NCBI RefSeq assembly: GCF_009831215.1
Contig: NZ_WUTW01000010.1
Span: 1-64,000 of the forward strand
DNA length: 64,000 bases
Reading direction: 5' to 3'
Source: Actinomadura rayongensis
GTDB lineage: Bacteria > Actinomycetota > Actinomycetes > Streptosporangiales > Streptosporangiaceae
In this document: piece after piece, positions 4,626-46,753 of the stretch
Layout: every line of letters begins with the position of its first letter
Numbering within the stretch: position 1 is the stretch's first letter
Notes under the pieces: model-generated
Seen by the model: only the letters and a program-made list of their open reading frames with translations
Told to the model about the DNA's origin: nothing
Databases searched by the model: none
Translations under genes and position numbers: made by a program

Positions 4626-4766
4626 CCGCGCTCCCGGCGAAGCTGACCGCACTCCGGGCGGGCGGACCTCACTCCCGGCGAAGCTGACCGCTTTCCGGGC
4701 AGGGCTGACCGCACTCCCGGCGAAGCTGATCGCATTCCGGGCAGGGCTGACCGCGCTCCGGGCGGA
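4621..4766 (+). repeat. Seven 21-bp tandem units starting at the I36 stop codon
   Basis: Consensus gctgaccgcactcccggcgaa, with seven copies (one of 20 bp) that alternate between endings ggcgaa and ggcagg/ggcggg, so the higher-order period is 42 bp. The first copy contains the TGA stop of the inhibitor gene. The array fills nearly all the space up to the DUF4291 gene. Confidence 0.85.
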
Positions 4767-4807
4767 AATGCGTTGCTTTTCCGGGCTGCGGCGGGCACGG
4801 TCGGGCG

Positions 4808-5392: not shown

Positions 5393-5692
5393 CCGGGCGC
5401 GATCCTCTACCGCGCGCGGCACCTGCGGCTGCATGCTTGGCCGGGGCCGATCCCCACCGCGCGCCGCATCTGCGGCTGGATGCCTGACCGGGCGCGATCC
5501 CCACCGCGCGCCGCACCTGCGGCTGGATGCCTGACCGGGCGCGATCCTCTACCGCGCGCGGCACCTGCGGCTGCATGCTTGGCCGGGGCCGATCCCCACC
5601 GCGCGCCGCATCTGCGGCTGGATGCCTGACTGGGCGCGATCCTCTACCGCGCGCGGCATCTGCGGCTGGATGCTTGACTGGGCGCGGGATCG
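5361..5692 (+). repeat. Seven 47/48-bp tandem copies of the DUF4291 gene end
   Basis: Units begin with accgcgcg at 5361, 5409, 5456, 5503, 5551, 5598 and 5646 (spacings 48, 47, 47, 48, 47, 48). Unit one is the coding end and stop codon of the DUF4291 gene. The block 5409-5550 is nearly repeated as 5551-5692, a 142-bp higher-order repeat. Many units carry the perfect inverted repeat gccgca-tc-tgcggc. It ends 12 bases before the response-regulator start, within whose leader lies a GGAGG ribosome site. Confidence 0.9.
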
Positions 5693-5704
5693 AGGAGGTC
5701 GGCG

Positions 5705-6370
5705 ATGATCAGAGTCGTGCTCGCGGACGATCAGGTGCTCGTCCGCGCCGGGTTCCGCGCGCTGCTGGACGCGCAGGACGGCGTCGAGGTCGTCGGGGAG
5801 GCCGGGACCGGGGACGAGGCGGTCGAGCTGGCCCGGCGGCTGCGGCCCGACGTGTTGCTGATGGACATCCGGATGCCGGGGCTGGACGGGCTGGAGGCCA
5901 CGCGGCGCATCACGGCCGATGCTTCGCTCGAAGGGGTGCGGATCGTCATCCTGACCACGTTCGAGCTGGACGAGTACGTGTTCGAGGCGCTGCGCGGCGG
6001 CGCGTCCGGGTTCCTCGTGAAGGACACCGAGCCCGTCGAGCTGGTCGCGGCGGTGCGGGCGGCGGCGCGCGGGGACGCGCTGCTGTCCCCCGGCGTCACG
6101 CGGCGGCTCATCGCCGAGTTCGCCGCGCGCGCCAAGGAGCCCGTCGTCGCGCCCCGGCTGAACGCGCTGACCGACCGGGAGCGCGAGGTGATGACGCTGG
6201 TCGGCGAGGGGCTGAGCAACGAGGAGATCGCGGCGCGGCTCGTCGTCAGCCCCGCGACCGCCAAGACGCACGTCAGCCGCACTATGATCAAACTCGGGGC
6301 GCGGGACCGCGCGCAGCTCGTCGTGTTCGCCTACGAGTCCGGGCTCGTCAAGCCCGGCTGGCTGCCCTGA
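5705..6370 (+). CDS. NarL/LuxR-family response regulator
   Basis: 221 aa with a receiver domain (acidic pocket D8/D9, phospho-acceptor D54 in LLMDIRMPG, conserved lysine in FLVKDTE near residue 104) and a C-terminal LuxR-type helix-turn-helix (LTDREREVMTLVGEGLSNEE, residues ~157-176). It should bind promoters after phosphorylation by a NarX-like sensor kinase. No such kinase gene is next to it, so it is an orphan in this window. ATG 5705 has a GGAGG ribosome site. It is followed by a second receiver protein on the same strand. Confidence 0.93.
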   Translation: MIRVVLADDQVLVRAGFRALLDAQDGVEVVGEAGTGDEAVELARRLRPDVLLMDIRMPGLDGLEATRRITADASLEGVRIVILTTFELDEYVFEALRGGASGFLVKDTEPVELVAAVRAAARGDALLSPGVTRRLIAEFAARAKEPVVAPRLNALTDREREVMTLVGEGLSNEEIAARLVVSPATAKTHVSRTMIKLGARDRAQLVVFAYESGLVKPGWLP

Positions 6371-6458
6371 CCCGGCCCCGCCGATGGGCTGTCGCCACCC
6401 GCACCGACGTGACAAGGTGGGTGGCCTGCGAGACGCCCCCGACCCGCGGAGGATGACG

Positions 6459-7049
6459 GTGCAGGCGAAATCCGCGAAGGTCCTGGCCGTGGACGACCGC
6501 GACGAGAACCTCGTCGCGCTGACGGCGGTGCTGGACGCCCTGCCGGTCGAGGTCGTGGCCGTGACGTCCGGGCAGGCCGCGCTGAAGGAGTTGCTGAACG
6601 ACGAGTTCGCGCTCATCCTGCTCGACGTGATCATGCCGGGGATGGACGGGTTCGAGACGGCGCAGCACATCAAGGGGCGCGCGCGGACGCGGGACGTCCC
6701 GATCATCTTCCTCACGGCCGCGGGCGATGCCGGGGACGACGCGTACCGGGGCTATGCCGCCGGGGCCGTGGACTATCTGACCAAGCCGTTCGATCCGTGG
6801 CTGCTGCGCGCCAAGGTGTCGGTGTTCGTGGATCTGCACCGGCGGGAGGCGGAGGTGCGGCGGCGGGCGGAGCTGCTGCGGCGCGCCCTTCCCTCCGACG
6901 AGAACGTTCCCGCCCTGCTGAATCGGCAGGTGGGTCAGGTGGAGGCCGCGGTGGCGCGGCTGCGGGCCAAGGACGCGGAGCTGCCGCTGTCGGACGTCGA
7001 GACGCGGCTGGACGAGCTGCGGACCACCGTCCGGGCCCTGCTGTCCTGA
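6459..7049 (+). CDS. Single-domain-type response regulator with helical tail
   Basis: 196 aa from GTG 6459, which sits 6 nt after GGAGG; an ATG at 6453 is in frame but directly abuts that site. A receiver domain (D12/D13, phospho-acceptor D56 in ILLDVIMPGMDG, lysine in DYLTKPFDP) is followed by an ~75-residue charged helical region without a known output domain. Such proteins act by protein contacts, often with histidine kinases or phosphatases. It is separated from the upstream NarL-type regulator by 88 bases and may share its transcript. Confidence 0.85.
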   Translation: MQAKSAKVLAVDDRDENLVALTAVLDALPVEVVAVTSGQAALKELLNDEFALILLDVIMPGMDGFETAQHIKGRARTRDVPIIFLTAAGDAGDDAYRGYAAGAVDYLTKPFDPWLLRAKVSVFVDLHRREAEVRRRAELLRRALPSDENVPALLNRQVGQVEAAVARLRAKDAELPLSDVETRLDELRTTVRALLS

Positions 7050-7076
7050 CGTTTTGTCACTCGGCTGCGGGTTCGC

Positions 7077-7161
7077 CGAACGTTCGCTGACCGGTTTGTG
7101 CAGGTCGCTACGGGTTTCTTTACCTTCTGGGGTTTGGTGCAAGTAAGTACTTGAGGGTAAC
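7077..7161 (+). promoter_or_regulatory. Operator-like inverted repeats upstream of the DUF6230 gene
   Basis: The palindrome cgaacgttcg lies at 7077-7086. Further down, caagta-ag-tacttg (7140-7153) is a perfect inverted repeat, and a third related half-site, taacttgc, follows at 7158-7165, so gcaagt and acttgc arms also pair around it. The cluster ends about 50 bases before the DUF6230 start and is a likely regulator-binding site. The protein that binds it is unknown. Confidence 0.45.
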
Positions 7162-7210
7162 TTGCGAGAGGTTCATCACTTTTCGCGCACTCTTGTACGG
7201 AGCGTTCCCC

Positions 7211-7804
7211 ATGTCCGAAACCCCCGCCGCGTCCCTCGGCCGGACCCGCTGGAAGCGGTTCGCCGCCCTCGCCGTCCCCGCCGCCGTCGGCGCGGGCGCG
7301 CTGATGTTCCTCACCGGGCAGGGCGCGGTCGCCTCCTCGTTCGCGGTGTCCGGCAGCAGCTTCAAGGTCCGCGCCGCGTCCCTGGAGGGCGACGGGTTCG
7401 TCCAGTACGGCGGGGCCGACGAGAGCAAGGACGGGCAGAAGCACCCCGTCCAGATCTCCGGGATCAAGCACGCCACGATCCGCGACATGTGCCAGTCCAT
7501 GAAGGTCGGGCCGTTCACGCTGCGGCTCACCGCCGGGACCGGCAAGGACCCCGTCGAGGCCACCGACCTCGTCCTCGACGTCGCGCAGCTCGACGCCAAC
7601 GCGTCCTTCCGCGACATCCAGATCGGGCGCGACGCCAGCACCCTCGACGCCGGGCCGTCCGGCGCGCGCGGCGCCACCGGCATGTTCGGGCAGCAGGCCT
7701 CGCACGTCACGCTCACCGACGTCAAGCAGGTCGCCTGGGCCACGACGGCCGGGACGTTCAAGCTCAACAACCTCAGCATGAAGCTCGGTGGGGAGTGTTT
7801 CTGA
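7211..7804 (+). CDS. DUF6230 family exported/membrane protein
   Basis: 197 aa from ATG 7211. A basic N-terminus (GRTRWKRF) and one hydrophobic segment (LAVPAAVGAGALMFLTGQGA, residues ~15-34) anchor or export it. The remainder has the DUF6230 features seen in actinomycetes: FAVSGSSFKV, a GIKHATIRDMCQS motif and a C-terminal TFKLNNLSMKLGGEC. These proteins were sometimes labelled cholesterol esterase without good evidence. It is always paired with a DUF6114 gene, which here begins 2 bases after its stop, so the two likely work together at the membrane. Confidence 0.82.
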   Translation: MSETPAASLGRTRWKRFAALAVPAAVGAGALMFLTGQGAVASSFAVSGSSFKVRAASLEGDGFVQYGGADESKDGQKHPVQISGIKHATIRDMCQSMKVGPFTLRLTAGTGKDPVEATDLVLDVAQLDANASFRDIQIGRDASTLDAGPSGARGATGMFGQQASHVTLTDVKQVAWATTAGTFKLNNLSMKLGGECF

Positions 7805-33829: not shown

Positions 33830-34411
33830 GTGAGCCGGGGCACGACGCGCGAGCGGCTGTTCACCGCCGCGATCGACCTGATCGCCGAACGCGGGTTCGC
33901 CGCGACGACCGTCGACCGGATCGCCGAGCGCGCCGGAGTCGCCAAGGGCACCGTCTACTACAACTTCGGCAGCAAGTCCGCGCTGTTCGACGCACTGCTG
34001 GACTTCGGCATCACCCGGTTCGCGCAACGCCTGCGGGACGCGGCGGCGGGCCTGCCCCCGGACGCGGCCCTGGACGCCGTCGTCCGCGAGGAGCTGGCGT
34101 TCCTCGCCGAGCACGAGGCGTTCGCGCGGCTCCTCATCGCGGAGACGTGGCGGCAGGGCGGCGGCGACTGGCAGCACGCCGCGCTGATGATCCGCGAGCG
34201 GGTCGTCGGCGCCGTCGCGGACGTGCTGCGCGCGGCCGTCGACGCGGGCCTGCTGCGCGCCGACCTGGACGTGCCGACGGCGGCGTCGGCGGTGTTCGGG
34301 ATGGTGCTCGTCGTCGGGCTGGACTGGCGGGCGCTCCAGCCGGACCGGCCGCGCGCCGAGGTCGAGGCGACCCTGCTGGACCTGCTGCGCGGACGCCTCG
34401 CCGCCGTCTAG
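33830..34411 (+). CDS. TetR-family regulator of the YhgE operon
   Basis: 193 aa from GTG 33830, with GGAGG 4 bases upstream. TetR helix-turn-helix: [20 protein letters not shown], then [20 protein letters not shown]. The C-terminal ligand domain is standard in length. It lies 34 bases after the YhgE/Pip gene and most likely represses the operon through the palindrome at 31046-31067. Its stop overlaps by 4 bases the stop of the convergent ABC ATPase gene. A short gactgtgac-type repeat lies in the gap before it. Confidence 0.92.
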
Positions 34412-35169
34412 AGGACGTGGTCGAGGAACGCCCGCGTCCGCGCCTGCTCGGGGTCGGCGAGCAGCCGCGCGGGCGGGCCGGACTCCACGACGCGGCCCTC
34501 GTCCAGGAACACGACCCGGTCGGCGGCCTCGCGCGCGAACCCCATCTCGTGGGTGACGACGACCATCGTCATGCCCGTCCCGGCGAGGTCGCGCATGACG
34601 CCGAGCACCTCGCCGACCAGCTCGGGGTCCAGCGCGCTCGTCGGCTCGTCGAACAGCATGACGGCCGGTTCCATCGCGAGCGCGCGGGCGATCGCGATGC
34701 GCTGCTGCTGCCCGCCGGAGAGCTGCCGGGGGTAGGAGCCCTCGCGTCCGGCGAGGCCGACGCGCGCGACGAGCGCCCGCGCGCGTTCCTCGGCGTCCGC
34801 CCGGCGCAGCCGCCGCACCGCGACCGGCGCCTCCACCAGGTTCTCCAGGACGGTCAGGTGCGGGAACAGGTTGAAGTTCTGGAACACCATCCCGATCCCG
34901 GCGCGCTGCCGGGCGACCTGGCGCGGCTTCAGCTCGTGCAGCGCGTCCCCGTGCCGCCGGTGGCCGATCAGCTCGCCGCCGACGTGGACCGTCCCGGCCG
35001 CGATCGGCTGGAGGTGGTTGACGCACCGCAAAAGGGTCGACTTGCCCGAGCCGGACGGCCCGATGAGGCAGACGACCTCACCCGCCGCCACCTCCAGGTC
35101 CACGCCGCGCAGCACGTGCGTCGCGCCGTAGTAGGCGTGCAGGGCGCGGATCGAGACTCCGGCGCTCAT
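34408..35169 (-). CDS. Amino-acid ABC transporter ATPase (GlnQ/HisP-like)
   Basis: 253 aa. Fully conserved motifs: Walker [10 protein letters not shown] (residues ~37-45), Q-loop [15 protein letters not shown], signature LSGGQQQR, Walker [13 protein letters not shown] and switch [14 protein letters not shown]. These place it with polar amino-acid importers. It is the last gene of the 34408-43035 operon, has its own GGAGG site and should pair with the permease upstream and the binding protein at 42103. It converges on the TetR gene with a 4-base overlap. Confidence 0.95.
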
Positions 35170-36061
35170 GGGGCGTCCTCCGTCGCGGGCGGCGCTCGTC
35201 CGAGCCGCGCCCGTAGTGCCGTTCCAGCGCGAACTGGCCCACCGACAGCAGGGACGCGACGACGAGGTACCACAGCGTCGCGACCAGCAGCAGCGGGATG
35301 ATCAGGAAGTTGCGGCCGTAGATCAGCTCGGCCGAGTACAGGACGTCCCCGACGCCGATCACGCTGACCAGCGTCGTGGACTTCAGCAGGCTGACGATCT
35401 GGTTCCCGGCGTTCGGCAGGATCGTCCGCATCGCCTGCGGCAGGACGATCCGGCGCAGCGTCCGGAACCGGCTCAGGCCGAGCGCCTGCGCCGCCTGCGT
35501 CTGGCCCGCGTCCACGCCGAGGATCCCGCCGCGCACGATCTCCGCCGCCAGCGCCGCCTCGTGGACGGTCAGCCCGATGATCGCGGCGGTGGTCGCGCCG
35601 ATGAGGTCCTTCGCGTCCACCTGCACGAACGTCGGCCCCCACGGGATGCCGAGGCCGAGCTTCGGGTACAGCGCGCCGATGTTGAACCACACGAGGAGCT
35701 GCACGAGCAGCGGCGTGGACCGGAACAGCCAGATGTAGCCGAGCGCCGCGCCGCGCAGCACGGCGTTCCCCGACATGCGGCAGATCGCGAGGACGGTGCC
35801 GAGCAGGAAGCCGAGAACGAACGTCAGGCCCGTCAGCCACAGCGTCATGTACAGACCGCGGACGATGGACTTGCTCGTGAAGTAGGCGCCGACGACGTCC
35901 CACTGCATCGCGTCGTTCGTCGCCAGCGACTGCACGGCGAACACGGCGAGGAACGCCACGACGGCGGCCGACGCCCACTGGCCGGTGCGGCGGACGGGCA
36001 CGACGCGCGGCGGCGGCTCGTCCTTCACCGGGGCCTCCAGCGGCAGCAGCGATTCCGACAC
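35078..36061 (-). CDS. Amino-acid ABC transporter permease, possible 3' frameshift
   Basis: 327 aa as read. HisM/GlnP-type permease with about six membrane helices; the cytosolic EAA loop is [20 protein letters not shown] (residues ~225-244). Only one permease gene is present, so it probably acts as a homodimer. After [10 protein letters not shown] the reading frame turns into an Arg-rich tail that runs 92 bases into the ATPase gene. In another frame the same DNA reads [10 protein letters not shown] and stops at 35166, giving the usual ATGA overlap, so a single-base indel (biological or sequencing) is likely near 35180-35215. Its start follows the biotin carboxylase stop by 3 bases. Confidence 0.85.
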
Positions 36062-36064
36062 GGC

Positions 36065-38035
36065 TCAGTCCGCCGGTTCCAGCACGACGAGCACCTGGTC
36101 GGCGGCCACCACGTCGCCGAGCGCGCAGCGGATCTCGCCGACCGTCCCGGCCGTGGCGGCGAGGACGCGGTTCTCGGTCTTCATCGCCTCCACCACCGCG
36201 ACCGTCTGCCCGCTCTCGACCGTGTCGCCGACCGCGACGGGCAGCGCGACGACCGTGCCCGGCATCGGGGCGGCGACGGCTCCGGCCGCGTCGTCCCCCG
36301 CGCCGTCCACGGCCGCGCCGGGCGCGAGCCGGACGCGGACGCCGCCGACCGCCAGCTCCACCGCGTCCGGCGCGTGCAGCCCGGCCCACGGGACCGCGCC
36401 GATCCGGCCGTGGAACAGGTCGCCGTCGGACGTGACCGTGACGCGGTGGCGGTCGCCCGCCACGGCCACGTCGACCGCGACGTCGGGCCCGGCGGCCCGG
36501 ACGCCGGTCAGCACGGCCTCCAGCCGCCGGGGGCCGTCCCGGCTGACGACGCGGCCGAGCGGCGCCGCCGGGTCGAGGAAGGAGCGGTCGAGCGGGCCGA
36601 CCGCGCCGCCCCACGGCGACCGCGCCGCGCCCGTGAGCCGCCGCACCTCGATCGCCGCCGCGCACGCGGCGGCGGCCGGGACGGGGTCCGCGCCGGCGCG
36701 CGCGGCCAGGAACTCCCCGACGACCTCGGTGTCGAGCGCGCCGGACCGCACGCGCGGCTCGGCGAGCAGGTCGGCGAGGAAGCCGAGGTTGGTGGTGAGG
36801 CCGAGGACGGCCGTGCCGCGCGCCGCGTCCGCGAGGCGCGTCAGCGCGGCGGCGCGGTCCGGGCCGTGCGCGACGAGCTTGGCGATCATCGGGTCGTAGA
36901 AGGACGGGACCGCGCCGCGCTCGTCGAACGCCGCGTCCACGCGCACGCCGGACGGCCACCGCACGACCTCGGCCGTCCCCGGCGCGGGCCGGAAGTCGGC
37001 ATCCGGGTCCTCGGCGTAGACGCGGGCCTCCACGGCGTGACCGTGCCGGCGGATCTCGTCCTGGCGCAGCGGCAGCGGCTCCCCGGCGGCGACGCGGAGC
37101 TGCCATTCGACCAGGTCCACGCCGGTGACGGCCTCGGTGACCGGGTGCTCGACCTGGAGGCGGGTGTTGGCCTCGATGAAGTAGAACCGGTCGTCGGCGT
37201 CGAGCAGGAACTCGAACGTCCCCGCGTTGACGTAGCCGACGGCCCGCGCGCCGCGCACCGCCGCGTCCAGCAGTTCCGCGCGGACGGTCTCGGGCAGCCG
37301 CGCCGCCGGGGCCTCCTCCACGATCTTCTGGTGGCGGCGCTGGAGCGAGCACTCGCGCTCGAAGAGGTGGACGACGGCGCCGTGCTCGTCCCCGAACACC
37401 TGCACCTCGACGTGGCGCGGACGCGGGACGTACCGCTCGGCGAGCAGCCGTCCGTCGCCGAACGCGGCCCGGGCGAGCCGGACGGCGCCCGCGACGGCCG
37501 CGTCCAGGTCGGCGTCGCGCTCCACGATCACCATGCCCTTGCCGCCGCCGCCCGCGACGGGCTTGAGGATGACGGGGTAGCCGATCGCGGCGACGGCGGC
37601 GCGCAGCTCGTCGGCCGACTCCGACGCGTCGGGCGTCCCGGGCAGGACGGGCACGCCGGACGCCGCCATCAGCGCCCGCGCCCCCGCCTTGTCGCCGAGC
37701 GCCGCGATCGTCTCCGGGCGCGGCCCGATCCACGTCAGGCCCGCACCGGTCACGGCCGCCGCGAACTCGGCGCTCTCGGACAGGAAGCCGTAGCCGGGGT
37801 GGACGGCGTCGCAGCCCGTCGCCGCCGCCGCGTCCAGCAGCGCGTCGATCCGCAGGTAGCTGCCGGCGGCGGGCGCCGGGCCGATCTCGACCGTCTCGGC
37901 GGCGCCGTCCAGGTGCGCCGCGCCCCGGTCGGCCGCCGAGTGGACGGCGACGAACTCGACGCCGAGCGCGCGGCAGGTGCGGGCGACGCGGCGGGCGATC
38001 TCGCCCCGGTTGGCGATGAGGATCCGTTTCAGCAT
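36065..38035 (-). CDS. Acyl-CoA carboxylase alpha subunit (biotin carboxylase-BCCP)
   Basis: 656 aa. N-terminal biotin carboxylase (MLKRILIANRGEIARRVART start, HPGYGFLSE, ATP-grasp loop GGGGKGM near residue 163, EANTRLQVEHPVTE) and a C-terminal biotin carrier domain with VEAMKTE around residue 618, where the lysine is biotinylated; the usual Met after the lysine is Thr. The size fits the alpha subunits of methylcrotonyl-, propionyl- or other acyl-CoA carboxylases. It activates bicarbonate onto biotin for the carboxyltransferase encoded 4 bases upstream. No Leu-catabolism genes flank it; the neighbours are transport genes and an oxoamine synthase. Confidence 0.95.
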   Translation of the reverse strand: MLKRILIANRGEIARRVARTCRALGVEFVAVHSAADRGAAHLDGAAETVEIGPAPAAGSYLRIDALLDAAAATGCDAVHPGYGFLSESAEFAAAVTGAGLTWIGPRPETIAALGDKAGARALMAASGVPVLPGTPDASESADELRAAVAAIGYPVILKPVAGGGGKGMVIVERDADLDAAVAGAVRLARAAFGDGRLLAERYVPRPRHVEVQVFGDEHGAVVHLFERECSLQRRHQKIVEEAPAARLPETVRAELLDAAVRGARAVGYVNAGTFEFLLDADDRFYFIEANTRLQVEHPVTEAVTGVDLVEWQLRVAAGEPLPLRQDEIRRHGHAVEARVYAEDPDADFRPAPGTAEVVRWPSGVRVDAAFDERGAVPSFYDPMIAKLVAHGPDRAAALTRLADAARGTAVLGLTTNLGFLADLLAEPRVRSGALDTEVVGEFLAARAGADPVPAAAACAAAIEVRRLTGAARSPWGGAVGPLDRSFLDPAAPLGRVVSRDGPRRLEAVLTGVRAAGPDVAVDVAVAGDRHRVTVTSDGDLFHGRIGAVPWAGLHAPDAVELAVGGVRVRLAPGAAVDGAGDDAAGAVAAPMPGTVVALPVAVGDTVESGQTVAVVEAMKTENRVLAATAGTVGEIRCALGDVVAADQVLVVLEPAD

Positions 38036-38039
38036 GGCG

Positions 38040-39644
38040 TCACATCCGGAAGACGCCGAAGCGCGTCGCGCGCTTCGGGGCGGTGGCGGCGAGGGCGAGG
38101 GACAGCGACAGCCACTCGCGGGTCTCGGACGGGTCGATCACCGCGTCCACCCAGAGCCGGGCGGCGACGTACAGGGGGCGTCCCTGCCGCTCGTAGTCCT
38201 CGCGGATGGGGCGCTTGAACTCCTCTTCCTCGGCCGGATCGACCGCTTTGCCCTGCTTCTCCAGTTGCTCGGCGCGGATCAGCGCCATCACGGTCGCGGC
38301 CTGCTCGCCGCCGATCACCGAGGTCTTCGCGTTCGGCCACATCGCCATGAGCTGCGGGCCGATCGACCGGCCGCACATCGCGAGGTTGCCCGCGCCGTAG
38401 CTGCCGCCGATGAGCACGCTGAACTTCGGGACCCGGACGGTCGACGCGGCGTTCACCATCTTCGCGCCGTGCTTGGCGATGCCGCCCGCCTCGTACTCGG
38501 CGCCGACCATGAACCCGTTGATGTTGTGGAGGAACAGCAGCGGGATGTCGCGCTGGGCGCACAGCTCGATGAAGTTCGCGGCCTTCTGCGCGCTCTCGGA
38601 GAACAGGACGCCGTCGTTGATGAGCACGCCGACCGGGAAGCCGCCGATGTGGCCCGTTCCGCAGACGATCGTCGTGCCGTACCCGGCGCGGTACTCGGTG
38701 ATCTCGCTGCCGTCCAGCAGCCGGGCCAGGATCTCCCGCGCCGGGATCGGCTCGCGCGGGTTCGCGCTGATGATGCCCGCGATCTCGCGCGGGTCGTGCC
38801 GGGGCGGACGCGGCGTGCGCGGCGGCACGGCCAGCGCGCCCTGCCCGCGCCGGGCGGTGATCTCCCGGACGAGCGCGAGCGCGTGGTCGTCGTCGGCGGC
38901 CAGATGGTCGGCGACGCCGCTGGTGCGGGTGTGCAGGTCCGCGCCGCCGAGCGTCTCGGCGTCCACGGTGACGCCGGTGGCGGCCTTGACGAGCTGCGGC
39001 CCGCCGAGGAACACCGACCCGGTGCCGCGCACCATGACCGTCTCGTCGCTCATCGCCGGGATGTACGCGCCGCCCGCCGTGCACGACCCCATGACGGCCG
39101 CGATCTGCGGCAGCCCGAGCGCGGACATCTCCGCGATGTTGCGGAAGATGCGCCCGAAATGATGGGCGTCGGGGAAGATGTCCTCCTGCATCGGCAGGAA
39201 GACGCCGCCCGAGTCGACCAGCGAGATGCTGGGCAGGCCGTTTTCGCGCGCGATCTCCTGGGTGCGCAGGTGCTTGCGGACGGTCAGCGGATAGTACGTC
39301 CCGCCCTTGACCGTGGCGTCGTTGGCGAACACCGCGACCGGCTGCCCCGCGACGACGCCGATGCCCGTCACCAGGCCCGACGACGGGACGGGCTGGTCGT
39401 ACACCTCGTGCGCGGCGAGCTGCCCGATCTCCAGGAACGGCGTCCCCGGATCCAGCAGCCGCGCGATCCGCTCGCGCGCCGTCAGCTTGCCGCGCGCCGC
39501 GTGCTTCTCCCGCGCCTTGGCGCCGCCCCCGGCGACCGCCGCCGCCCGCGCCGCCGCGATGGGCGCGCGCAGTTCGTCGTAGGCGGCGGCGTTGCGCAGG
39601 AACTCGGAACCGGACGGGTTGACGCGGGAACGCAACAACGTCAT
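38040..39644 (-). CDS. Acyl-CoA carboxylase beta subunit (methylcrotonyl-CoA type)
   Basis: 534 aa from ATG 39644, overlapping the MFS stop (ATGA). Carboxyltransferase of the MccB group: GKLTARERIARLLDPGTPFL, VANDATVKGGTYYP-like segment (VFANDATVKGGTYYPLTVRK), VDSGGVFLPMQ, MGSCTAGGAYIPAMSDE and the C-terminal INGFMVGAEYEAGGIAKHGA and SYGAGNLAMCGR. It moves CO2 from biotin to a short branched or unsaturated acyl-CoA. The exact substrate cannot be read; 3-methylcrotonyl-CoA is the family's best known. In this operon it may supply an acyl-CoA for the oxoamine synthase. Confidence 0.95.
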   Translation of the reverse strand: MTLLRSRVNPSGSEFLRNAAAYDELRAPIAAARAAAVAGGGAKAREKHAARGKLTARERIARLLDPGTPFLEIGQLAAHEVYDQPVPSSGLVTGIGVVAGQPVAVFANDATVKGGTYYPLTVRKHLRTQEIARENGLPSISLVDSGGVFLPMQEDIFPDAHHFGRIFRNIAEMSALGLPQIAAVMGSCTAGGAYIPAMSDETVMVRGTGSVFLGGPQLVKAATGVTVDAETLGGADLHTRTSGVADHLAADDDHALALVREITARRGQGALAVPPRTPRPPRHDPREIAGIISANPREPIPAREILARLLDGSEITEYRAGYGTTIVCGTGHIGGFPVGVLINDGVLFSESAQKAANFIELCAQRDIPLLFLHNINGFMVGAEYEAGGIAKHGAKMVNAASTVRVPKFSVLIGGSYGAGNLAMCGRSIGPQLMAMWPNAKTSVIGGEQAATVMALIRAEQLEKQGKAVDPAEEEEFKRPIREDYERQGRPLYVAARLWVDAVIDPSETREWLSLSLALAATAPKRATRFGVFRM

Positions 39645-40864
39645 CGCGAAGCCCCCTTCGAGAGCGTGGTGCCGCGCACCAGGAACCAGGCGAGCGCGCT
39701 CAGCGCGGCGGCCGTCGCCGACCACGCCAGTTCCGCGCGCAGCGGGGTCGCGGCCAGCGCCGCCAGCCCCGCCGTGGACTGCTGGACGAACCCGCACAGC
39801 GCGATGGCGTACGCGCCGTGCGCGGGGTCGGCGCTCGCGGCGGCGGCCATGCTGGTGGGGAAGAGCACCGCCTGCCCGAACGTCGTGACGCAGTAGAGCG
39901 CGATGAACGCGGTGAGGGCCGTGACGCGTCCGGCGTCCAGGGACCACAGCACGACCATCGCCAGGCCCGAGGCCGTCATGACGAGCGCGCCCGTCCGCAT
40001 CAGGCGGCCCGCGCCGAACCGCGCGACCGTCCGGTTGACGGTCAGCGCGCCCGCGAAGTAGGCGGGGGCGAGCAGCAGGCCGATGCCGCCGTACGCGTCC
40101 GCCGCGAGCCCGAAGTGCTGCTGGAACACGAACGGCGCGACCTCCTGGAGGACGACGACCGTCGCGAACCCGAGCCCGCCCGCGTACGTCGGCAGCGCGA
40201 ACCCGGGCGTGCGCAGGAGCCGCAGCCCGACGCGGAACACGTTGCCCGCCTCCCCCGCCGGGCGCGCCGGGCCGAGCGGCAGCGCGAACGACGTCGCGAT
40301 GGCCGCCGCGCCGACGACGGCGAGCACCACGAAGCCGAGCCGCCAGTCGGCGTACCGGGTGAGCAGGCCGCCGGTGAACTGGCCGCCGCCGAGCGCGGTG
40401 ATGAACGCGATCGACAGCACCGACAGCCGCCGCGCGAGCTGGTCGCCGGAGCCGAGGTCGCGGACGGCGATCCGCGCGATGATCGCGCTGCCGCCCGCGC
40501 CGATGCCCTGGAGGGCGCGCAGGACGAGCAGCAGCGCGGGCGACGTCGTCACGGCCAGCGCAATGCAGCACGCGACGAACAGGCCGAGCGACGCCAGCAG
40601 CGGGCCGCGCCGTCCGTAGCGGTCGGCGGCGCGGCCCCACGGGACGACGGGCGCGGCGGCGCCGATGACGAACACCGAGATCGACGCCCCGGCGAAGCCG
40701 CGCGACACGTCGAGCTCGCGCATGACGGCGGGCAGCGCCGGGAGGTAGATCGTCGTCGCCATCTGGGCCATGAAGACGACCAGGCACGACCAGAGCAGCA
40801 CGCGCCGCGCGTCGGTCCGCTCTGCCGCGGGGCGTTCCGCGACGGCCTCAGCCACGTTCGTCAC
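39641..40864 (-). CDS. MFS exporter (DHA1 family)
   Basis: 407 aa from GTG 40864, overlapping the oxoamine synthase gene by 17 bases; GTG 40855 is an alternative. Twelve hydrophobic helices and motif A (RAADRYGRRGPLL, about residue 65), with YLPALPAVMRELDVS at the N-terminus, typical of bicyclomycin/chloramphenicol-type exporters. Within the operon it most plausibly exports the product of the pathway. The gene is flanked by enzymes on both sides. Confidence 0.92.
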   Translation of the reverse strand: MTNVAEAVAERPAAERTDARRVLLWSCLVVFMAQMATTIYLPALPAVMRELDVSRGFAGASISVFVIGAAAPVVPWGRAADRYGRRGPLLASLGLFVACCIALAVTTSPALLLVLRALQGIGAGGSAIIARIAVRDLGSGDQLARRLSVLSIAFITALGGGQFTGGLLTRYADWRLGFVVLAVVGAAAIATSFALPLGPARPAGEAGNVFRVGLRLLRTPGFALPTYAGGLGFATVVVLQEVAPFVFQQHFGLAADAYGGIGLLLAPAYFAGALTVNRTVARFGAGRLMRTGALVMTASGLAMVVLWSLDAGRVTALTAFIALYCVTTFGQAVLFPTSMAAAASADPAHGAYAIALCGFVQQSTAGLAALAATPLRAELAWSATAAALSALAWFLVRGTTLSKGASR

Positions 40865-42062
40865 CGCGCAGCGCGTTGAGGCGCGCGCCGAAGCGCTCGA
40901 TGTCGGCGTCGTCCAGGTTGGCGCGGAGCATGATCCGCAGCCCGGCCCGGCCGCGCGCGATGACGGGGAAGAACAGCGCGGACGTGTAGAAGCCGTCGGC
41001 GAGCAGGTCCCGCGCGATGCGGACGGTCGCCGCCTCGTCGCCGATGTCGACGAACCGGATCGGCAGGCCGTCGCCCGCGCTCGCCGTCGGGACGAGCCCG
41101 TCGAACAGGTCCACCTTCTCCTGGAGGCGCTGCTGGAGTTTCTCCAGCTCGGACGTGCGGTGCAGCGCGGCGGACGCCAGGATCGCGCCGAGCCCGGCGG
41201 TGTTGATCCGCTGCGACCAGGTGAGCGGGCCGCCGTAGCGCAGCGCGAGGTCCCGGCGCTTCGCCGAACCGCGCGGGCCGAGGAAGATCGCGCCGCCGGA
41301 CGCCCCGAAGCCCTTGTTCAGCGACGTGATGAGCAGTGTGCGGTCGTTGATGCCGTCCATTTCCTCCAGGACGAGCCCGCGCCCGTTCTTGCCGAGCGTG
41401 GAAATGCCGTGGGCCTCGTCGAAGAACAGGAACAGGCCGTACTTCTCCTGGAGCGCGAGCAGTTCCTTCACGGGCGCGCGCCCGCCCGTGCTGTAGACGC
41501 CGTCCGCGACGAACGCGACCTTCTTGTGCTTGCGGCAGAGGTCTTCGAGCGCGTCCACGTCGTTGTGGCGGATCGTCACGACCTCGGCCTCGTCGGCCAC
41601 GCTCGGCTTCATCGCGTTGAGGCAGAAATGCGCGTTCTTGTCGAACACCATCAGCGGCGGAACGTCCTCGGTGAACGCGCCGGACGCCACCAGCGGGAGC
41701 GCCGACCACGCCGCCGCCGCGCACGACGCCAGCGTCACCGCCTCGACGTCGAACAGCTCCGACAGCGCGTCCTCGGCGCGTTTCAGGATGCCGAAGTGCA
41801 GGCGCATCCGGGAGATCGAGGTGTTCAGGGAGCGGTTGTCGAGCACCGCCTCGGCGGCGGCCCGGATCAGGTCCTCGTGGGAGTCCAGCCCGAGATAGGA
41901 GTAGGACGACATGTTGACGAACTCGTGGCCGCCCGGCTCGGTCAGGTGGCGGCCGTCGCCGAGGTTGCCGGCGACGATGCCCGCCGTTCCCGCCGCCGTC
42001 GTGACGTCCCAGAAATCGTTGCTGACGCGGATCGTCTTCTTGGTGTTCATGTAGGTGTGCAC
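40848..42062 (-). CDS. PLP-dependent alpha-oxoamine synthase family enzyme
   Basis: 404 aa from GTG 42062, 5 bases after GGAGG. Fold-type I enzyme of the BioF/KBL/CqsA group: MSSYSYLGL near residue 52, the PLP-ring Asp and substrate motif FFDEAHGIS (~residue 212), and the Schiff-base lysine in SLNKGFGASGG (~residue 250). Family members join an amino acid to an acyl-CoA, releasing CO2 and CoA, to give an aminoketone. It does not sit beside biotin or threonine genes, so bioF and kbl are unlikely. The operon supplies an amino-acid importer, a carboxylase that makes acyl-CoA and an exporter. Confidence 0.88.
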   Translation of the reverse strand: MHTYMNTKKTIRVSNDFWDVTTAAGTAGIVAGNLGDGRHLTEPGGHEFVNMSSYSYLGLDSHEDLIRAAAEAVLDNRSLNTSISRMRLHFGILKRAEDALSELFDVEAVTLASCAAAAWSALPLVASGAFTEDVPPLMVFDKNAHFCLNAMKPSVADEAEVVTIRHNDVDALEDLCRKHKKVAFVADGVYSTGGRAPVKELLALQEKYGLFLFFDEAHGISTLGKNGRGLVLEEMDGINDRTLLITSLNKGFGASGGAIFLGPRGSAKRRDLALRYGGPLTWSQRINTAGLGAILASAALHRTSELEKLQQRLQEKVDLFDGLVPTASAGDGLPIRFVDIGDEAATVRIARDLLADGFYTSALFFPVIARGRAGLRIMLRANLDDADIERFGARLNALRGDERG

Positions 42063-42102
42063 GGTCGCCTCCGGTGGTGGATCCGGATGTTTCGCGGTGT
42101 CG

Positions 42103-43035
42103 TCAGTCCAGGCCGGGCGGGTTGAGCTGGGAGGTGCTCACCGCGCCCGTCTGCAGGCCCCACGCCTGGAGGATCCGCGCGTAGGTGCCGTCGTCGATGA
42201 GCTTCTGCACGGCCTTCTGCAGGACGGGCCCGAGCGCGTCGCCCTTCTTCAGCACGAACCCGACGTGCTCGGAGTTGAGCGTCCCCTTGAACGCGAGCTT
42301 GGCGGGCTGCTGCTTGGCGTCGTACTGCGCGCGGATCGCGCTGCGCAGGTAGAGGTCGATGCGCTTCTGGTCGAGCGCGAGCGTGAAGGACGCCTGGTCG
42401 GGATAGGTCGAGATCTTCCACGGCTGTCTGCCGAGCTTCGCGCAGTCGCCCTCGTGGCTTTGGAGGACGCCGATGAAGCTCGTCCCGGTGAACGTCCCGA
42501 CCTTCCGGCCGCACAGGTCGGTGAGCTGGGTGACGGCCGGCTGGTTCGTCGCCGGATTGGCGAGGAAGCCGAAGCCGTCGTTGTAGTAGGTGACGAAGTC
42601 GTAGGTCTTCAGCCGGTCCTTGGTGACGCCGAAATTGCCCTGCGCGACGCGGAACTTGCCGGTCTGGACGCCGACCAGGAGCGAGTCCCACTTGGTCGTG
42701 GTGGGCGCGGCGCGGACGCCGAGCACTTTCGCCACCGCGTCGCGGAGGTCGATCTCGATGCCGATCTGGGTCTTGTTGTCGGGGGCGAGGAAGGTGAACG
42801 GCGCGCCGACCGTGGAAATGCCGGTCGTGATCGTTCCAGCGGAACGGACGTCGGCGGGGAGCTGCGCGTTGAGCGCGTCGTCCTTGGCGACCTTCGCGAC
42901 CACGGCGGCGGCCGTGGTGCTTCCCGCGACGGCCTCCTTGTCGGTGGCGGAGGACGGGTCGTCGGTGCCGCACGCGGCAAGGGCCGGGGGCAGCAGGAGC
43001 GCCGCCGCGGCGAGGGCGCCGAAACGAAGTCGCAT
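42103..43035 (-). CDS. Amino-acid ABC transporter substrate-binding lipoprotein
   Basis: 310 aa. Lipoprotein signal with lipobox LAAC (Cys22), then a family-3 solute-binding domain: FTFLAPDNKTQIGIEIDLRD, WDSLLVGVQTGKFRVA, KVGTFTGTSF and a C-terminal LIDDGTYARILQAWGL. The ligand is likely an amino acid or a close derivative. It is the first gene of the operon and 40 bases upstream of the oxoamine synthase. A good promoter lies 37 bases upstream of the start. The ABC permease and ATPase it needs are the last two genes of the same operon, 6 kb away. Confidence 0.92.
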   Translation of the reverse strand: MRLRFGALAAAALLLPPALAACGTDDPSSATDKEAVAGSTTAAAVVAKVAKDDALNAQLPADVRSAGTITTGISTVGAPFTFLAPDNKTQIGIEIDLRDAVAKVLGVRAAPTTTKWDSLLVGVQTGKFRVAQGNFGVTKDRLKTYDFVTYYNDGFGFLANPATNQPAVTQLTDLCGRKVGTFTGTSFIGVLQSHEGDCAKLGRQPWKISTYPDQASFTLALDQKRIDLYLRSAIRAQYDAKQQPAKLAFKGTLNSEHVGFVLKKGDALGPVLQKAVQKLIDDGTYARILQAWGLQTGAVSTSQLNPPGLD

Positions 43036-43071: not shown

Positions 43072-43100
43072 AGAGTACGTGCGTTCCCGAGCTTGGTCAA
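43072..43100 (-). promoter_or_regulatory. Promoter of the oxoamine synthase operon
   Basis: On the minus strand TTGACC (43100-43095) and TACTCT (43077-43072) are separated by exactly 17 bases, a good match to a housekeeping sigma promoter. The expected start point lies ~30 bases before the ATG at 43035. Confidence 0.55.
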
Positions 43101-43356: not shown

Positions 43357-43803
43357 TCACGGCGCGGGGCGCGTCGCGTCGATCACGTCGGGGAGGGCGG
43401 CGTTCAGCGCGTCGGCCCAGTCCCGCAGCGACGGCGCGAGGGCGGGCGGGGTCGCGGCGGCGAGCGCGGCGGCGGCCGGTCCCGCGTGCGCGGCCAGCCG
43501 GTCCAGCGCGCCGGGGACGGGCTCGACCAGCACGCGCCGCCGGTCGCCGGGGTCGCGGGTGCGGCGGGCCAGCCCGGCGGCCTCCAGCCGGTCGATCACG
43601 GCGGTGATCGCGCCGCCCGTCGAGACGCCGACCGCCCGCGCGAGCTGCCCCGGCGTGCGCGGCCCGTCCAGGCCGAGCAGGACGGCGCACTGCGCGTCCA
43701 CCACGCCGAGCCCCGCGCGCGCCGCGACGGACTGGAACAGCCGGACGGTCAGTGTCGCCGTGCGCAGCAGCGTCCGGGCCAGGTCGTCGTCCGCCGCTTC
43801 CAA
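43357..43803 (-). CDS. MarR-family transcriptional regulator
   Basis: 148 aa if translation begins at TTG 43803, which sits right behind a long GGAGGAGGGG ribosome site; the frame runs on upstream through the terminator-like region without another site. The winged helix-turn-helix is typical of MarR: AVLLGLDGPRTPGQLARAVG, then STGGAITAVIDRLEAAGLAR and the wing RDPGDRRRVLVEP. MarR proteins respond to small phenolic or drug-like ligands. It lies upstream of, and in line with, the oxoamine synthase operon and is its likely regulator. Confidence 0.88.
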   Translation of the reverse strand: MEAADDDLARTLLRTATLTVRLFQSVAARAGLGVVDAQCAVLLGLDGPRTPGQLARAVGVSTGGAITAVIDRLEAAGLARRTRDPGDRRRVLVEPVPGALDRLAAHAGPAAAALAAATPPALAPSLRDWADALNAALPDVIDATRPAP

Positions 43804-44135
43804 CGCCCCTCCTCCGCTCGCTGGCCCGCAGCGTATCCCGGCGCGGGGCGGTGGACGCGGCTGCTCCGGACGACCGATACGATGGATTTGGTTAGGACCG
43901 CTAAACAACGGCGCCGGCCCCTGCGGCCCCGGATCCCACAAGGACCCGGGGCCTTGCTGTTTTCCGGGCGTCCGGCCCGGCACGAAAACCGTCCGGACTG
44001 CGGTGGTGTGACCGGAGAGCGAACGCCGGGCCAACCCTGACCGAACAAGCGGGGGAATCGGTCCGCCGCCGTCCCGCCGCTCACTAGCCTGCGAGAACAC
44101 GGGCCGGACGGCGGCCCCGGCGCAGGGAACGGTGC
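43804..44135. other. Intergenic region between MarR and sulfotransferase genes
   Basis: This 332-base gap separates divergent genes and should hold both promoters. A near-palindrome aaggacccggggcctt lies around 43940-43955, and a T-rich stretch (ttgctgttttccggg) follows. I see no gene. No promoter could be assigned with confidence. Confidence 0.4.
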
Positions 44136-45245
44136 GTGTCCGCGAAGGTCATCCTGCACATCGGCCAGCAGAAGTCGGGGACGACGCATCTCCAGCGGAT
44201 CCTCGGGCACTGCTCGGACGGGCTCGCCGACGCCGGGATCCTGTTCCCCGCGTCGCTGCGCGAGGCCCTGCCGGACACGATCGAGAACCACGAGCGCGCC
44301 ACCTACGGACTGCTCGGCACCGAGTACCCGTGGGTGACGGCCGAGCGCGCCGCCGAGGAACGGCCCCGCTGGGACGCGCTGGCCGAGAAGGTCCGCGCCT
44401 GGCCCGGCACGGCGCTGATCTCCGCCGAGGCGCTGTCGGTGATCCGTACGGACGCGATCCGGACGCTCGTCACCGAGTTCGACGCCGACACGGTCGAGGT
44501 CGTCGTGACCACGCGTCCGCTCGGCCGGTCGCTGCCGTCGCTGTGGCAGCAGCACGTCCGCAACGGGCGCGTCAGCGCGCTCGGCGCGTTCTTCGCCTGG
44601 CTGGCGCGGCAGCGCGAGGCCGGGGCGAAGGCCGTCGAGGAGGAGCAGGACCTGCACCTGTGGCGGTCGTTCGCCCTCGGCCGGCTCGTGCGGCGCTGGG
44701 CGTCGGTCGTCGGTCCGGAGCGGGTGACGGTCGTCGTCAACCCCGGCCGTCCGCACGACCTGCTGTGGGAGCGGTTCCGCGTCGCGATCGGCGCGGACGG
44801 CGTCACCGTCGCCGACGAGGTCCACGCCGCCCGGACGCACGAGAGCCTCACGCTGCCGCAGGCGCAGGTCATGGTCCGGCTGAACGAGGCGTTCGAGACG
44901 GCGGGCTGGGACACCTACGCGGCGCGGGCCGTCCGGGAGGCGATCGTGCTGCGCGGGACGGTGCCGGGGCCGCGGCCGGGCGTCCCGGAGTCGGCGTGGC
45001 GGCTGGTCGAGTCGTGGACGGAGGAGGACCTCGCCGACCTGCGCGCGACCGGCGCGCGGATCATCGGCGACGTCGCCGAGCTGCGGTTCAGCCCCGAACG
45101 CGACCTGCACGGCCCGATCACGCACGAGCAGATCGCCGAGGCCGCCGCCGCCGCGCTGCTCGCCGTCGCCGACCGCGACCGGTTCGCGCCGCCGGTGCCC
45201 GAGGTGCCCGCGCAGCGCCGCCGCGTCCTGCGGGTGCGCCGGTGA
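44136..45245 (+). CDS. Sulfotransferase-like protein
   Basis: 369 aa from GTG 44136. The 5'-PAPS phosphate-binding loop is at the very start: ILHIGQQKSGTTHLQ (residues ~6-20), with a possible 3'-phosphate motif in TTRPLGRSLPSLWQQH (~residue 128). Actinomycete proteins of this kind transfer sulfate from PAPS to sugars, lipids or other small molecules. No PAPS synthesis genes are near. The next gene, with a 4-base overlap, encodes a sulfatase, so addition and removal of sulfate may be linked. Confidence 0.8.
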   Translation: MSAKVILHIGQQKSGTTHLQRILGHCSDGLADAGILFPASLREALPDTIENHERATYGLLGTEYPWVTAERAAEERPRWDALAEKVRAWPGTALISAEALSVIRTDAIRTLVTEFDADTVEVVVTTRPLGRSLPSLWQQHVRNGRVSALGAFFAWLARQREAGAKAVEEEQDLHLWRSFALGRLVRRWASVVGPERVTVVVNPGRPHDLLWERFRVAIGADGVTVADEVHAARTHESLTLPQAQVMVRLNEAFETAGWDTYAARAVREAIVLRGTVPGPRPGVPESAWRLVESWTEEDLADLRATGARIIGDVAELRFSPERDLHGPITHEQIAEAAAAALLAVADRDRFAPPVPEVPAQRRRVLRVRR

Positions 45246-46753
45246 GGCGTCTCGGCGCCGTCCTGCTCGGCCTCGTCCTGCTCGCGTCGGGCTGCGCGGC
45301 CGGACCGGGCACCGCCGAGCCCGCCAAGCCGCGCAAAAAGCCGAACTTCATCTTCGTCCTGGCCGACGACCTGGACGACACGCTCATGCCGTACATGCCG
45401 AAGACGGCACGGGACATCACCGCGCAGGGCGTGACGCTGAACCGCTACTACGTCAACCTGTCGTGGTGCTGCCCGTCGCGGGCGTCCACGCTGCGCGGCC
45501 AGTACGCGCACAACACCGGCGTGTGGAGCAACAACCCGCCGAACGGCGGCTTCGTGGAGTTCTACAAGCGCGGCGAGGAGAAGGACACGCTCGCCACGTG
45601 GCTGGCGAAGGCGGGCTACCGCAGCGGGCTGTTCGGCAAGTACCTGAACGGCTATCCCGAGCAGGTGCCGTCGCTGCCGCTCACGCGCGTCCCGCCGGGC
45701 TGGGACACGTGGGTGGCGCCGGTGGCCGGGCACCCGTTCCAGGGGTTCGACTACACGCTCAACGTGAACGGGTCGCTCGTGCACCGGCGGCCGTCCCCGA
45801 AGACGTACCTGACGGACGTGCTGTCGCAGTACGCGCGGCAGTTCGTCACCGCGGCGGACAAGCGGCCGTTCTTCGCCTACATCGCGCCCGTCACGCCGCA
45901 TCCCCCGGCCGTCCCTGCGCCGCGCCACGCGAAGCTGTACCCGGGGCTGAAGGCGCCGCGCACGCCCGCCTACGACGCGCCGCCTGCGGGCAAGCCGACC
46001 GAGGTGCGGCGGCTGCCGCCGCTCACGTCCGGCGAGGAGCGCCGGTGGGACACGCTGTTCCGGCACCGCGCCCAGTCGATGCGGGCCATCGACGACATGG
46101 TGGACGCTCTGGTCACCGCGCTGCGCTCCGCCGGGCGGCTGGACGACACCTACATCGTCGTCACGTCCGACAACGGCTTCCACATCGGCGACTACCGGAT
46201 GCCGCCCGGCAAGAACACCGGGTACGAAGGTGACATCCGGGTGCCGTTCGTGGTGCGCGGGCCGGGCGTGCCTGCGGGCCGCACGGTGTCGGCGCTGGCC
46301 GGGAACACCGACATCGCGCCGACGCTGCTCGACCTCGCCGGGGCGCGGCGTCCGCCGATCGTGGACGGGCGCTCGCTGCGTCCTCTGCTGTCCGGACGGC
46401 GCCCGTCCGGCTGGCGGTCGGCGTTCCTGCTGGAGCACGGGACGGCGCGCGGGACCCATCCGTCCGCCCGCTACGACTTGCCGGGAAAGCCGCCGGATTC
46501 GTACACGTCCAAGACGCGCACGCAGTTCTATCTGCCGGTCTTCACGGGCCTGCGCACCGATCGCTACCTCTATCTGGACTACGCGACGGGCGAGCGGGAG
46601 CTGTACGACATGGAGCGCGACCCGTACCAGCTCCACAACCTCGCCGCCGCCGACCCGGCCGAGGTGGAACGGCTCACGACGTGGATCGGGCGGCTGAGCG
46701 ACTGCGCCGCCGCGTCCTGCCGGACCGCCGAGGCCCGTCCGCCCGAGCGCTGA
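45242..46753 (+). CDS. Secreted lipoprotein sulfatase
   Basis: 503 aa from GTG 45242, overlapping the sulfotransferase stop. Lipoprotein signal with Cys18 (VLLASGC). Type I sulfatase fold: FIFVLADDLDD metal site, the formylglycine motif CCPSR (Cys76 to be oxidised) followed by ASTLRG, GLFGKYLNGY, and DNGFHIGDYRMPPGKNTGYE near residue 310. It needs a formylglycine-generating enzyme, not found in the window. It is expected on the outer face of the membrane, cleaving a sulfate ester (or, in some relatives, a phosphate ester). Confidence 0.92.
   Translation: MRRLGAVLLGLVLLASGCAAGPGTAEPAKPRKKPNFIFVLADDLDDTLMPYMPKTARDITAQGVTLNRYYVNLSWCCPSRASTLRGQYAHNTGVWSNNPPNGGFVEFYKRGEEKDTLATWLAKAGYRSGLFGKYLNGYPEQVPSLPLTRVPPGWDTWVAPVAGHPFQGFDYTLNVNGSLVHRRPSPKTYLTDVLSQYARQFVTAADKRPFFAYIAPVTPHPPAVPAPRHAKLYPGLKAPRTPAYDAPPAGKPTEVRRLPPLTSGEERRWDTLFRHRAQSMRAIDDMVDALVTALRSAGRLDDTYIVVTSDNGFHIGDYRMPPGKNTGYEGDIRVPFVVRGPGVPAGRTVSALAGNTDIAPTLLDLAGARRPPIVDGRSLRPLLSGRRPSGWRSAFLLEHGTARGTHPSARYDLPGKPPDSYTSKTRTQFYLPVFTGLRTDRYLYLDYATGERELYDMERDPYQLHNLAAADPAEVERLTTWIGRLSDCAAASCRTAEARPPER

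Follow-up and report, generated by a model that had tools for sequence, protein, structure and literature searches.

Several described systems each resemble part of a seven-gene operon that we analyzed in a 64,000-nucleotide stretch of Actinomadura rayongensis DNA (contig NZ_WUTW01000010.1, positions 1 to 64,000; here, the window) and that, with its relatives elsewhere, we call the cassette. Synthases of the BioF, KBL, 5-aminolevulinate synthase (ALAS), and CqsA types have the same pyridoxal phosphate-dependent alpha-oxoamine synthase (AOS) fold and presumed chemistry as the enzyme encoded there, but the cassette AOS falls under all of their cut-offs. MccAB, the 3-methylcrotonyl-CoA carboxylase (MCC) of leucine catabolism, shares sequence lineage and domain layout with the cassette's carboxyltransferase (CT) and biotin carboxylase (BC); the cassette CT differs in forming a separate clade, in having no leucine genes beside it, and at Tyr422 and 14 further positions. 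The ketomemicin (ktm) cluster encodes an AOS of the same broad family, KtmB, is likewise independent of nonribosomal peptide synthetases (NRPSs), and includes an ATP-grasp ligase, as do 9 of the 37 cassette loci described below. Its acyl donor bears a free carboxylate, as would the donor that we propose for the cassette. The cassette's carboxylase and major facilitator superfamily (MFS) transporter are missing from ktm, which instead carries, according to PMC11943689, an aldolase, a dehydratase, an amidinotransferase, and a dehydrogenase. The nearest solved AOS is Alb29 of albogrisin biosynthesis (PDB 8xha, 428.6 bits; one of four chains matching at 426 to 429 bits), which takes L-Glu with several acyl-CoAs according to PMC11906848 and PMC10230504.

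Our preferred reading, to which we assign a probability of about one half, is that these genes form a small cassette, independent of NRPSs, that makes and secretes an alpha-aminoketone from a gamma-carboxylated enoyl-CoA donor. A secreted aminoketone is the best prediction for these genes, from which the donor, chemistry, transport direction, and product are all inferred. The gene content itself is established: all seven genes lie on the minus strand, and their families in Pfam and NCBIfam scans match those of the original prediction, which a model had made from the letters of the window (Table 1). That prediction also stated that no described cluster was known to have this gene combination. 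Literature searches on AOS relatives and on the gene combination, which covered subscription journals thinly, brought up work on ketomemicin, on engineering of oxoamine synthases, and citing Alb29, along with much that is unrelated. Among the matches listed, judged mostly by title and the opening of the abstract, we recognized no carboxylase-AOS cluster, although one may have been described elsewhere.

In NF005697, a family titled “hypothetical protein” (cut-off, 342), the AOS reaches 531 bits, compared with 137.6 bits for BioF (cut-off, 426) and 102.1 and 96.6 bits for KBL (cut-offs, 460 and 493). The model scan placed it far under the curated cut-offs for BioF, KBL, ALAS, serine palmitoyltransferase, and alpha-hydroxyketone autoinducer synthase, which bears out its expected position outside BioF and KBL. 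We located Lys250, Asp215, His218, His145, and Arg376 by motif and presume that they have the roles familiar from this fold, in which the active site sits at the dimer interface. Alb29 has the motif EPDFFP where the cassette AOSs compared have S(P/A)(I/L/V)FFP. At E 1e-5, the window genome contains only one other AOS match, at 29% identity.

Scanning genome contigs yielded 53 AOS loci, 28 at 58 to 86% identity and 25 at 43 to 47%. The best tree (39 rows, excluding L018, L049, L054, six loci found later, and 17 of the 25 loci at 43 to 47%) sets 28 close AOSs apart from 11 others, among them Alb29 and the 43 to 47% group with its Salinispora loci (support, 67/90). Those Salinispora loci are at most candidate ktm clusters; the six genes scanned in L035 include an aldolase, a MaoC dehydratase, and an ornithine cyclodeaminase-type dehydrogenase, with no ATP-grasp ligase and no amidinotransferase. 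The window itself is ruled out as a ketomemicin cluster, as its gene content does not match the ktmA-F set. For counts of neighboring genes we used 37 close loci, comprising 31 (the window, L058, and a Pantoea agglomerans plasmid included) plus L132, L133, L136, L137, L139, and L140. These are not 37 species, since L025 and L026 share a species name, as do L017 and L018. Statements about neighbors come from tblastn and family scans, except where a reading of translations is named; our home-made open reading frame (ORF) caller misframes high-GC DNA.

The broadly conserved unit is AOS, MFS, CT, and BC, and the amino-acid importer is an Actinomadura addition. CT and BC genes adjoin the AOS in 32 of the 37 loci, spanning actinomycetes, Chromobacterium, Burkholderiaceae, and the Pantoea plasmid, and because they stand beside such AOSs in two phyla, the arrangement is not due to chance. 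An MFS gene, of two or more kinds, occurs near the AOS in 36 of 37 loci, which supports the linked transporter, a presumed exporter, of the original prediction. The genes of the ATP-binding cassette (ABC) importer adjoin the cassette in 3 of 37 loci, all Actinomadura; in Amycolatopsis L013 a related importer lies ∼4 kb upstream (ATPase, 67%; permease, 50%; solute-binding protein, 33%). Conservation had been expected for the AOS with both the carboxylase pair and the ABC genes: the former association recurs, and the latter does not, which speaks against counting the importer among the unit's general components.

The totals of 32 (CT and BC) and 36 (MFS) both count L139 (G546:C1:3918000-3936000; Chromobacterium family), which has a full-length AOS match and partial MFS, CT, and BC genes in a stretch free of N, the result of either decay or an assembly fault. 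Frames are interrupted in the CT of L021 and in most genes of L049. Carboxylase-free forms have an acyl-CoA dehydrogenase, AOS, amino-acid ligase, and MFS (L010, L022, and L027) or an AOS, ligase, MFS, and CoA transferase (L132), and L054 is an AOS fragment without CT or BC. An L-amino-acid-ligase C-terminal domain was present in all three ATP-grasp ligases scanned (L008, L014, and L132).

The cassette is rare. At E 1e-60, the AOS occurs in 3 of 36 genomes of the genus, counting that of the window, and in 3 of 59 overall; the complete seven-gene operon is likewise found in 3 of the 36. At E 1e-90, 396 Actinomycetota genomes gave only the window and one 44% relative. At E 1e-140, matches were found in 7 of 70 genomes in the genus of a Kitasatospora genome (G451), 9 of 61 in the family of a Chromobacterium genome (G453), and 2 of 299 in the family of a Paraburkholderia genome (G457).

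Sequence distances show that the AOS and CT are co-inherited. Their distances correlate at 0.97 over 22 loci, a value reached in 0 of 2,000 permutations (L018, L021, L025, L049, and L058 excluded). Over 11 genomes (L021, with its interrupted CT, excluded), the correlation is 0.96 for AOS with cassette CT, 0.68 for AOS with the genome's other MCC, and 0.53 for the two carboxylases; the partial AOS-CT correlation is 0.97, again with 0 of 2,000 permutations. In these genomes, the window's cassette CT is 77 to 78% identical to those of Chromobacterium, Paraburkholderia, and Trinickia and 55 to 75% identical to those of actinomycetes. Its other MCC shows the reverse, with 77 to 83% identity to actinomycetes and 71 to 72% to the same three proteobacteria. 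Because the cassette CT is nearest to proteobacterial CTs while the other MCC is nearest to those of actinomycetes, and because AOS and CT diverge together, we conclude that the cassette moved between phyla as a unit. On these sequence comparisons it is a rare cassette that soil actinomycetes and unrelated proteobacteria have inherited whole, and a carboxylase of the leucine-catabolism type has thus been recruited into a mobile, probably biosynthetic cassette common to two phyla.

The CT is of the MCC type and nearest to PaMccB (3u9r, 675.7 bits), to which it aligns from residue 1; it thus has the N-terminal extension that is absent from the beta subunit of propionyl-CoA carboxylase (PCC). PMC4673880 serves as a guide here: the extension marks the gamma-carboxylating lineage of MCC and geranyl-CoA carboxylase (GCC), within which a three-residue insertion and a Phe at a pocket site set MCC apart from GCC. 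The insertion is present in 25 of 25 cassette CTs, and the pocket site, equated with MCC Phe191 by our own alignment, is bulky in all of them (F in 11, the window included; L in 13; I in 1). By that guide, the CT belongs to the MCC/GCC lineage with a small pocket. This comparison predates the six later loci and covers the window with 24 of the other 30; eight sequences under 500 residues, L021 and L049 among them, were dropped. In the phylogeny, a single clade (100/100) unites all 25 cassette CTs and excludes the 13 MCC and 8 GCC-like ones; it may or may not have originated inside the MCC group. Fourteen positions are invariant within the cassette set and within the MCC set yet differ between them. 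The title of a P. aeruginosa MCC study cited in PMC4673880 names Tyr422 and Ser187 as substrate-recognizing. All 13 MCC CTs have Tyr422, which every one of the 25 cassette CTs replaces with Leu or Phe. A lineage with a small pocket, together with this replacement, suggests as substrate a short enoyl-CoA other than 3-methylcrotonyl-CoA.

The likeness to PaMccB, the gamma-carboxylase lineage, and the retention of Ser187 (23 of 25 cassette CTs) could also mean that the pair is a true MCC fed by leucine and that the AOS uses 3-methylglutaconyl-CoA. We consider this unlikely given the uniform loss of Tyr422, the 3-hydroxybutyryl-CoA dehydrogenase and thiolase genes found as neighbors, and the following genomic context. 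Each of the 12 whole genomes checked, the window's and 11 others (56 to 60% identity), has another MCC-type CT; the Pantoea plasmid record has one CT. In the window genome this second pair (C14) stands beside an HMG-CoA lyase gene (378 bits; cut-off, 246), followed by an acyl-CoA dehydrogenase that no model assigns. Homologues of that lyase and of the C14 acyl-CoA dehydrogenase, taken as the liu-type query, were not found in 36 cassette loci or the window at E 1e-10, in agreement with the original prediction that leucine-degradation genes do not accompany the operon. Judged by clade and gene context, the cassette carboxylase is an MCC-type paralogue and not the leucine-catabolic MccAB, from which the prediction had also separated it. 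A third pair in the window genome (L077; G000:C11:4178-7736) is GCC-like and has no three-residue insertion.

Neighboring genes point to the acyl donor. In 17 of 37 loci they include a 3-hydroxybutyryl-CoA dehydrogenase, thiolase, FadAB, or ketoacyl-acyl carrier protein synthase III (KAS III). The dehydrogenase is beside the cassette in 11 loci (that of L006 scores 419 bits against an NCBIfam cut-off of 319), 3 of which also have KAS III; a thiolase occurs in 5; and FadB and FadA occur in 1, the Pantoea locus, whose FadB carries hydratase and dehydrogenase domains. Among carboxylase-free loci, the acyl-CoA dehydrogenase of L010, L022, and L027 is divergent in sequence, its best NCBIfam match in L010 being glutaryl-CoA dehydrogenase (51.6 bits), and the AOSs of all three group with Amycolatopsis AOSs (97/98). 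The CoA transferase of L132 is most like 2-methylfumaryl-CoA isomerase (402 bits; 8apq, 380 bits). The more distant AOS of Salinispora L035 has as neighbors an aldolase of the HpcH/HpaI type and a MaoC protein that matches Mesaconyl-CoA hydratase (73.7 bits), again suggestive of dicarboxylic acyl-CoA chemistry and leaning slightly toward the same donor. The carboxylase, acyl-CoA dehydrogenase, and CoA transferase modules can each be interpreted as leading to an unsaturated dicarboxylic monothioester. Because of these neighbor genes and the alternative modules of carboxylase-free loci, we infer that the donor is an unsaturated dicarboxylic acyl-CoA, most simply glutaconyl-CoA, rather than any short acyl-CoA.

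The linked dehydrogenase admits another interpretation, in which the carboxylation product is malonyl- or methylmalonyl-CoA, from which the AOS makes 4-amino-3-oxo acids that the dehydrogenase reduces to statine-like acids. Carnitine dehydrogenase, a member of the 3HCDH family, does act on a 4-amino-3-oxo acid (weak matches, 74 and 66 bits). However, the CT lies outside the alpha-carboxylating lineage of PCC and acetyl-CoA carboxylase, and the L006 dehydrogenase scores as a 3-hydroxybutyryl-CoA dehydrogenase, so we regard this route as quite improbable.

Several observations weigh against a glutaconyl-type donor or a distinct cassette enzyme. The exclusion of Alb29 from the 28 close AOSs is weakly supported at 67/90. 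A search of the alignment for donor-diagnostic residues returned AOS positions 222, 290, and 368, none of them charged, and no residue diagnostic of a dicarboxylic donor. Crotonyl-CoA-building genes are absent beside the cassette in 20 of 37 loci, the window included, and the Pantoea FadAB genes, which run divergently from the cassette, may have no connection with it. The Chromobacterium thiolase exceeds the cut-off for 3-oxoadipyl-CoA thiolase, and therefore another acyl chain is possible. The glutaryl-CoA dehydrogenase match is weak (cut-off, 470 bits), with other acyl-CoA dehydrogenases in the PDB scoring higher; the Mct-like transferase occurs in one locus, below its cut-off of 725; and Ser187, as noted, is mostly kept.

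In the proposed pathway, thiolase, KAS III, dehydrogenase, and FadB steps would lead from acetyl-CoA through acetoacetyl-CoA and 3-hydroxybutyryl-CoA to crotonyl-CoA, and the MCC-type carboxylase would carboxylate a short 2-enoyl-CoA, in the simplest case crotonyl-CoA, at its gamma carbon to give a glutaconyl-type dicarboxylic acyl-CoA. The AOS would join an amino acid to this donor with loss of the amino-acid carboxylate, giving a predicted amino-enone acid, R-CH(NH2)-CO-CH=CH-CH2-COOH or a tautomer, for export by the MFS protein. The ABC importer added in Actinomadura probably supplies the amino acid. Family scans of its solute-binding protein gave no clear ligand. Where an amino-acid ligase is encoded, as in Amycolatopsis, some Kitasatospora, and the carboxylase-free forms, the product is probably converted to a dipeptide, a form proposed because of the ATP-grasp ligase with its L-amino-acid-ligase domain. 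The dipeptide could cyclize to a pyrazinone, by analogy with the signal DPO (3,5-dimethylpyrazin-2-ol).

A catabolic operon, in which the importer takes in an amino acid or aminoketone that the AOS and carboxylase help degrade, is the account to which we give least credence. It could draw on the importer of the Actinomadura operon, on an export direction that is only presumed for the MFS protein, and on the beta-keto acid cleavage enzyme encoded close to five cassettes of Chromobacterium, but the importer is found in 3 of 37 loci against 36 of 37 for the MFS gene. In addition, the relatives Alb29 and KtmB are biosynthetic, and PMC11906848 describes AOS reactions as irreversible and decarboxylative. 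The five loci in question (L011, L017, L018, L028, and L140, all of the Chromobacterium family) have the cassette after the cleavage enzyme, a hydrolase, and a PcaF-like thiolase, with families scanned in L011.

Extending the preferred aminoketone pathway to the whole family is tentative, and the odds seem to us somewhat unfavorable. The cassettes may represent a new NRPS-independent product class across Actinomycetota and Pseudomonadota, in which AOSs use glutaconyl-type unsaturated dicarboxylic acyl-CoAs from three interchangeable modules (MCC-derived carboxylase, acyl-CoA dehydrogenase, and Mct-like CoA transferase) to make electrophilic amino-enone acids, vinylogous relatives of ketomethylene pseudodipeptides. 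Under the preferred reading itself, the four-gene form would be a minimal pathway to a secreted aminoketone. To our knowledge, glutaconyl-CoA has so far been assigned to no oxoamine synthase, and with a donor named this concretely, one in vitro assay could test the whole cluster family. We rejected an equation of the cassette with the Pantoea antibiotic PNP-3, comparing by description and not by sequence, since PNP-3 is reported only from Pantoea and the cassette occurs in two phyla; antiSMASH reportedly put the 8.5-kb PNP-3 cluster of Pantoea strain 3581 in a phosphonate/NRPS region.

The layout of the window operon (Table 1) recurs in two other Actinomadura genomes, G011 (L058) and G003 (L005 and L059), with all seven genes present and their order unchanged. 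The tight packing first described holds for five junctions, namely AOS-MFS (overlap, 17 bases), MFS-CT (overlap, 4), CT-BC (gap, 4), BC-permease (gap, 3), and permease-ATPase (overlap, 92; 35078-35169), and fails for the solute-binding protein and AOS, which are 40 bases apart. The 92-base overlap is also seen in L058 and L005. The predicted promoter and the upstream MarR gene were both found in place; TTGAC and TACTCT are kept 5′ of the solute-binding protein gene in L058 and L005, where the spacer is 18 by manual count on the alignment, against 17 in the window.

Table 1. Features of the operon and its upstream region in the window
Feature	Positions	Strand	Evidence or remark
Promoter TTGACC-17-TACTCT	43072..43100	-	Read at 43100-43072
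MarR-family regulator, upstream, start codon not fixed	43357..43845	-	MarR_2 39.1 bits; same place in L005, L058
Amino-acid-type solute-binding lipoprotein (SBP_bac_3)	42103..43035	-	Pfam 76 bits
Alpha-oxoamine synthase (AOS), NF005697 (PRK07505) family	40848..42062	-	531 bits; Aminotran_1_2
MFS transporter, Bcr/CflA-like, presumed exporter	39641..40864	-	MFS_1 118.7 bits; TIGR00710 127.6 bits, below cut-off 200.9
Carboxyltransferase (CT), MCC-type beta subunit, own clade	38040..39644	-	Carboxyl_trans; PaMccB 3u9r 675.7 bits
Biotin carboxylase (BC) + biotinyl domain, Lys619 in EAMKTE	36065..38035	-	Pfam; motif position
ABC amino-acid permease	35078..36061	-	BPD_transp_1 83.4 bits, residues 84-282 of 298 scanned
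ABC ATPase, polar amino-acid importer type	34408..35169	-	ABC_tran 119.1 bits

At E 1e-60, 122 plasmid records, mostly rhizobial, match the AOS. We rejected the Sinorhizobium and Rhodococcus plasmid homologues as cassettes because their annotated neighbors are not of the cassette type; a Kocuria plasmid record bears no annotation. On Sinorhizobium plasmids (L081 and L082), 47%-identity AOS relatives lie downstream of short-chain dehydrogenase/reductase and response-regulator genes, with an acetolactate synthase gene also in L081. Plasmid NZ_CP046102.1 of Rhodococcus sp. AQ5-07 (L080) has two class I/II aminotransferase-fold genes, one of which is the AOS match and groups with Alb29 (100/100), along with genes for a 2-oxoglutarate-Fe dioxygenase, a PGM1-related peptide ligase, an acyl-CoA dehydrogenase, and an NRPS.

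Two observations come from readings of translations. Only in A. atramentaria (L005) are the MarR gene and cassette preceded, on the upstream side, by thiolase-like and acyl-CoA-synthetase-like ORFs (4659-7415), which could be relevant to the acyl donor. Beside the operon in the window (44136-46753) are a sulfotransferase-like ORF and then a sulfatase-like lipoprotein frame.

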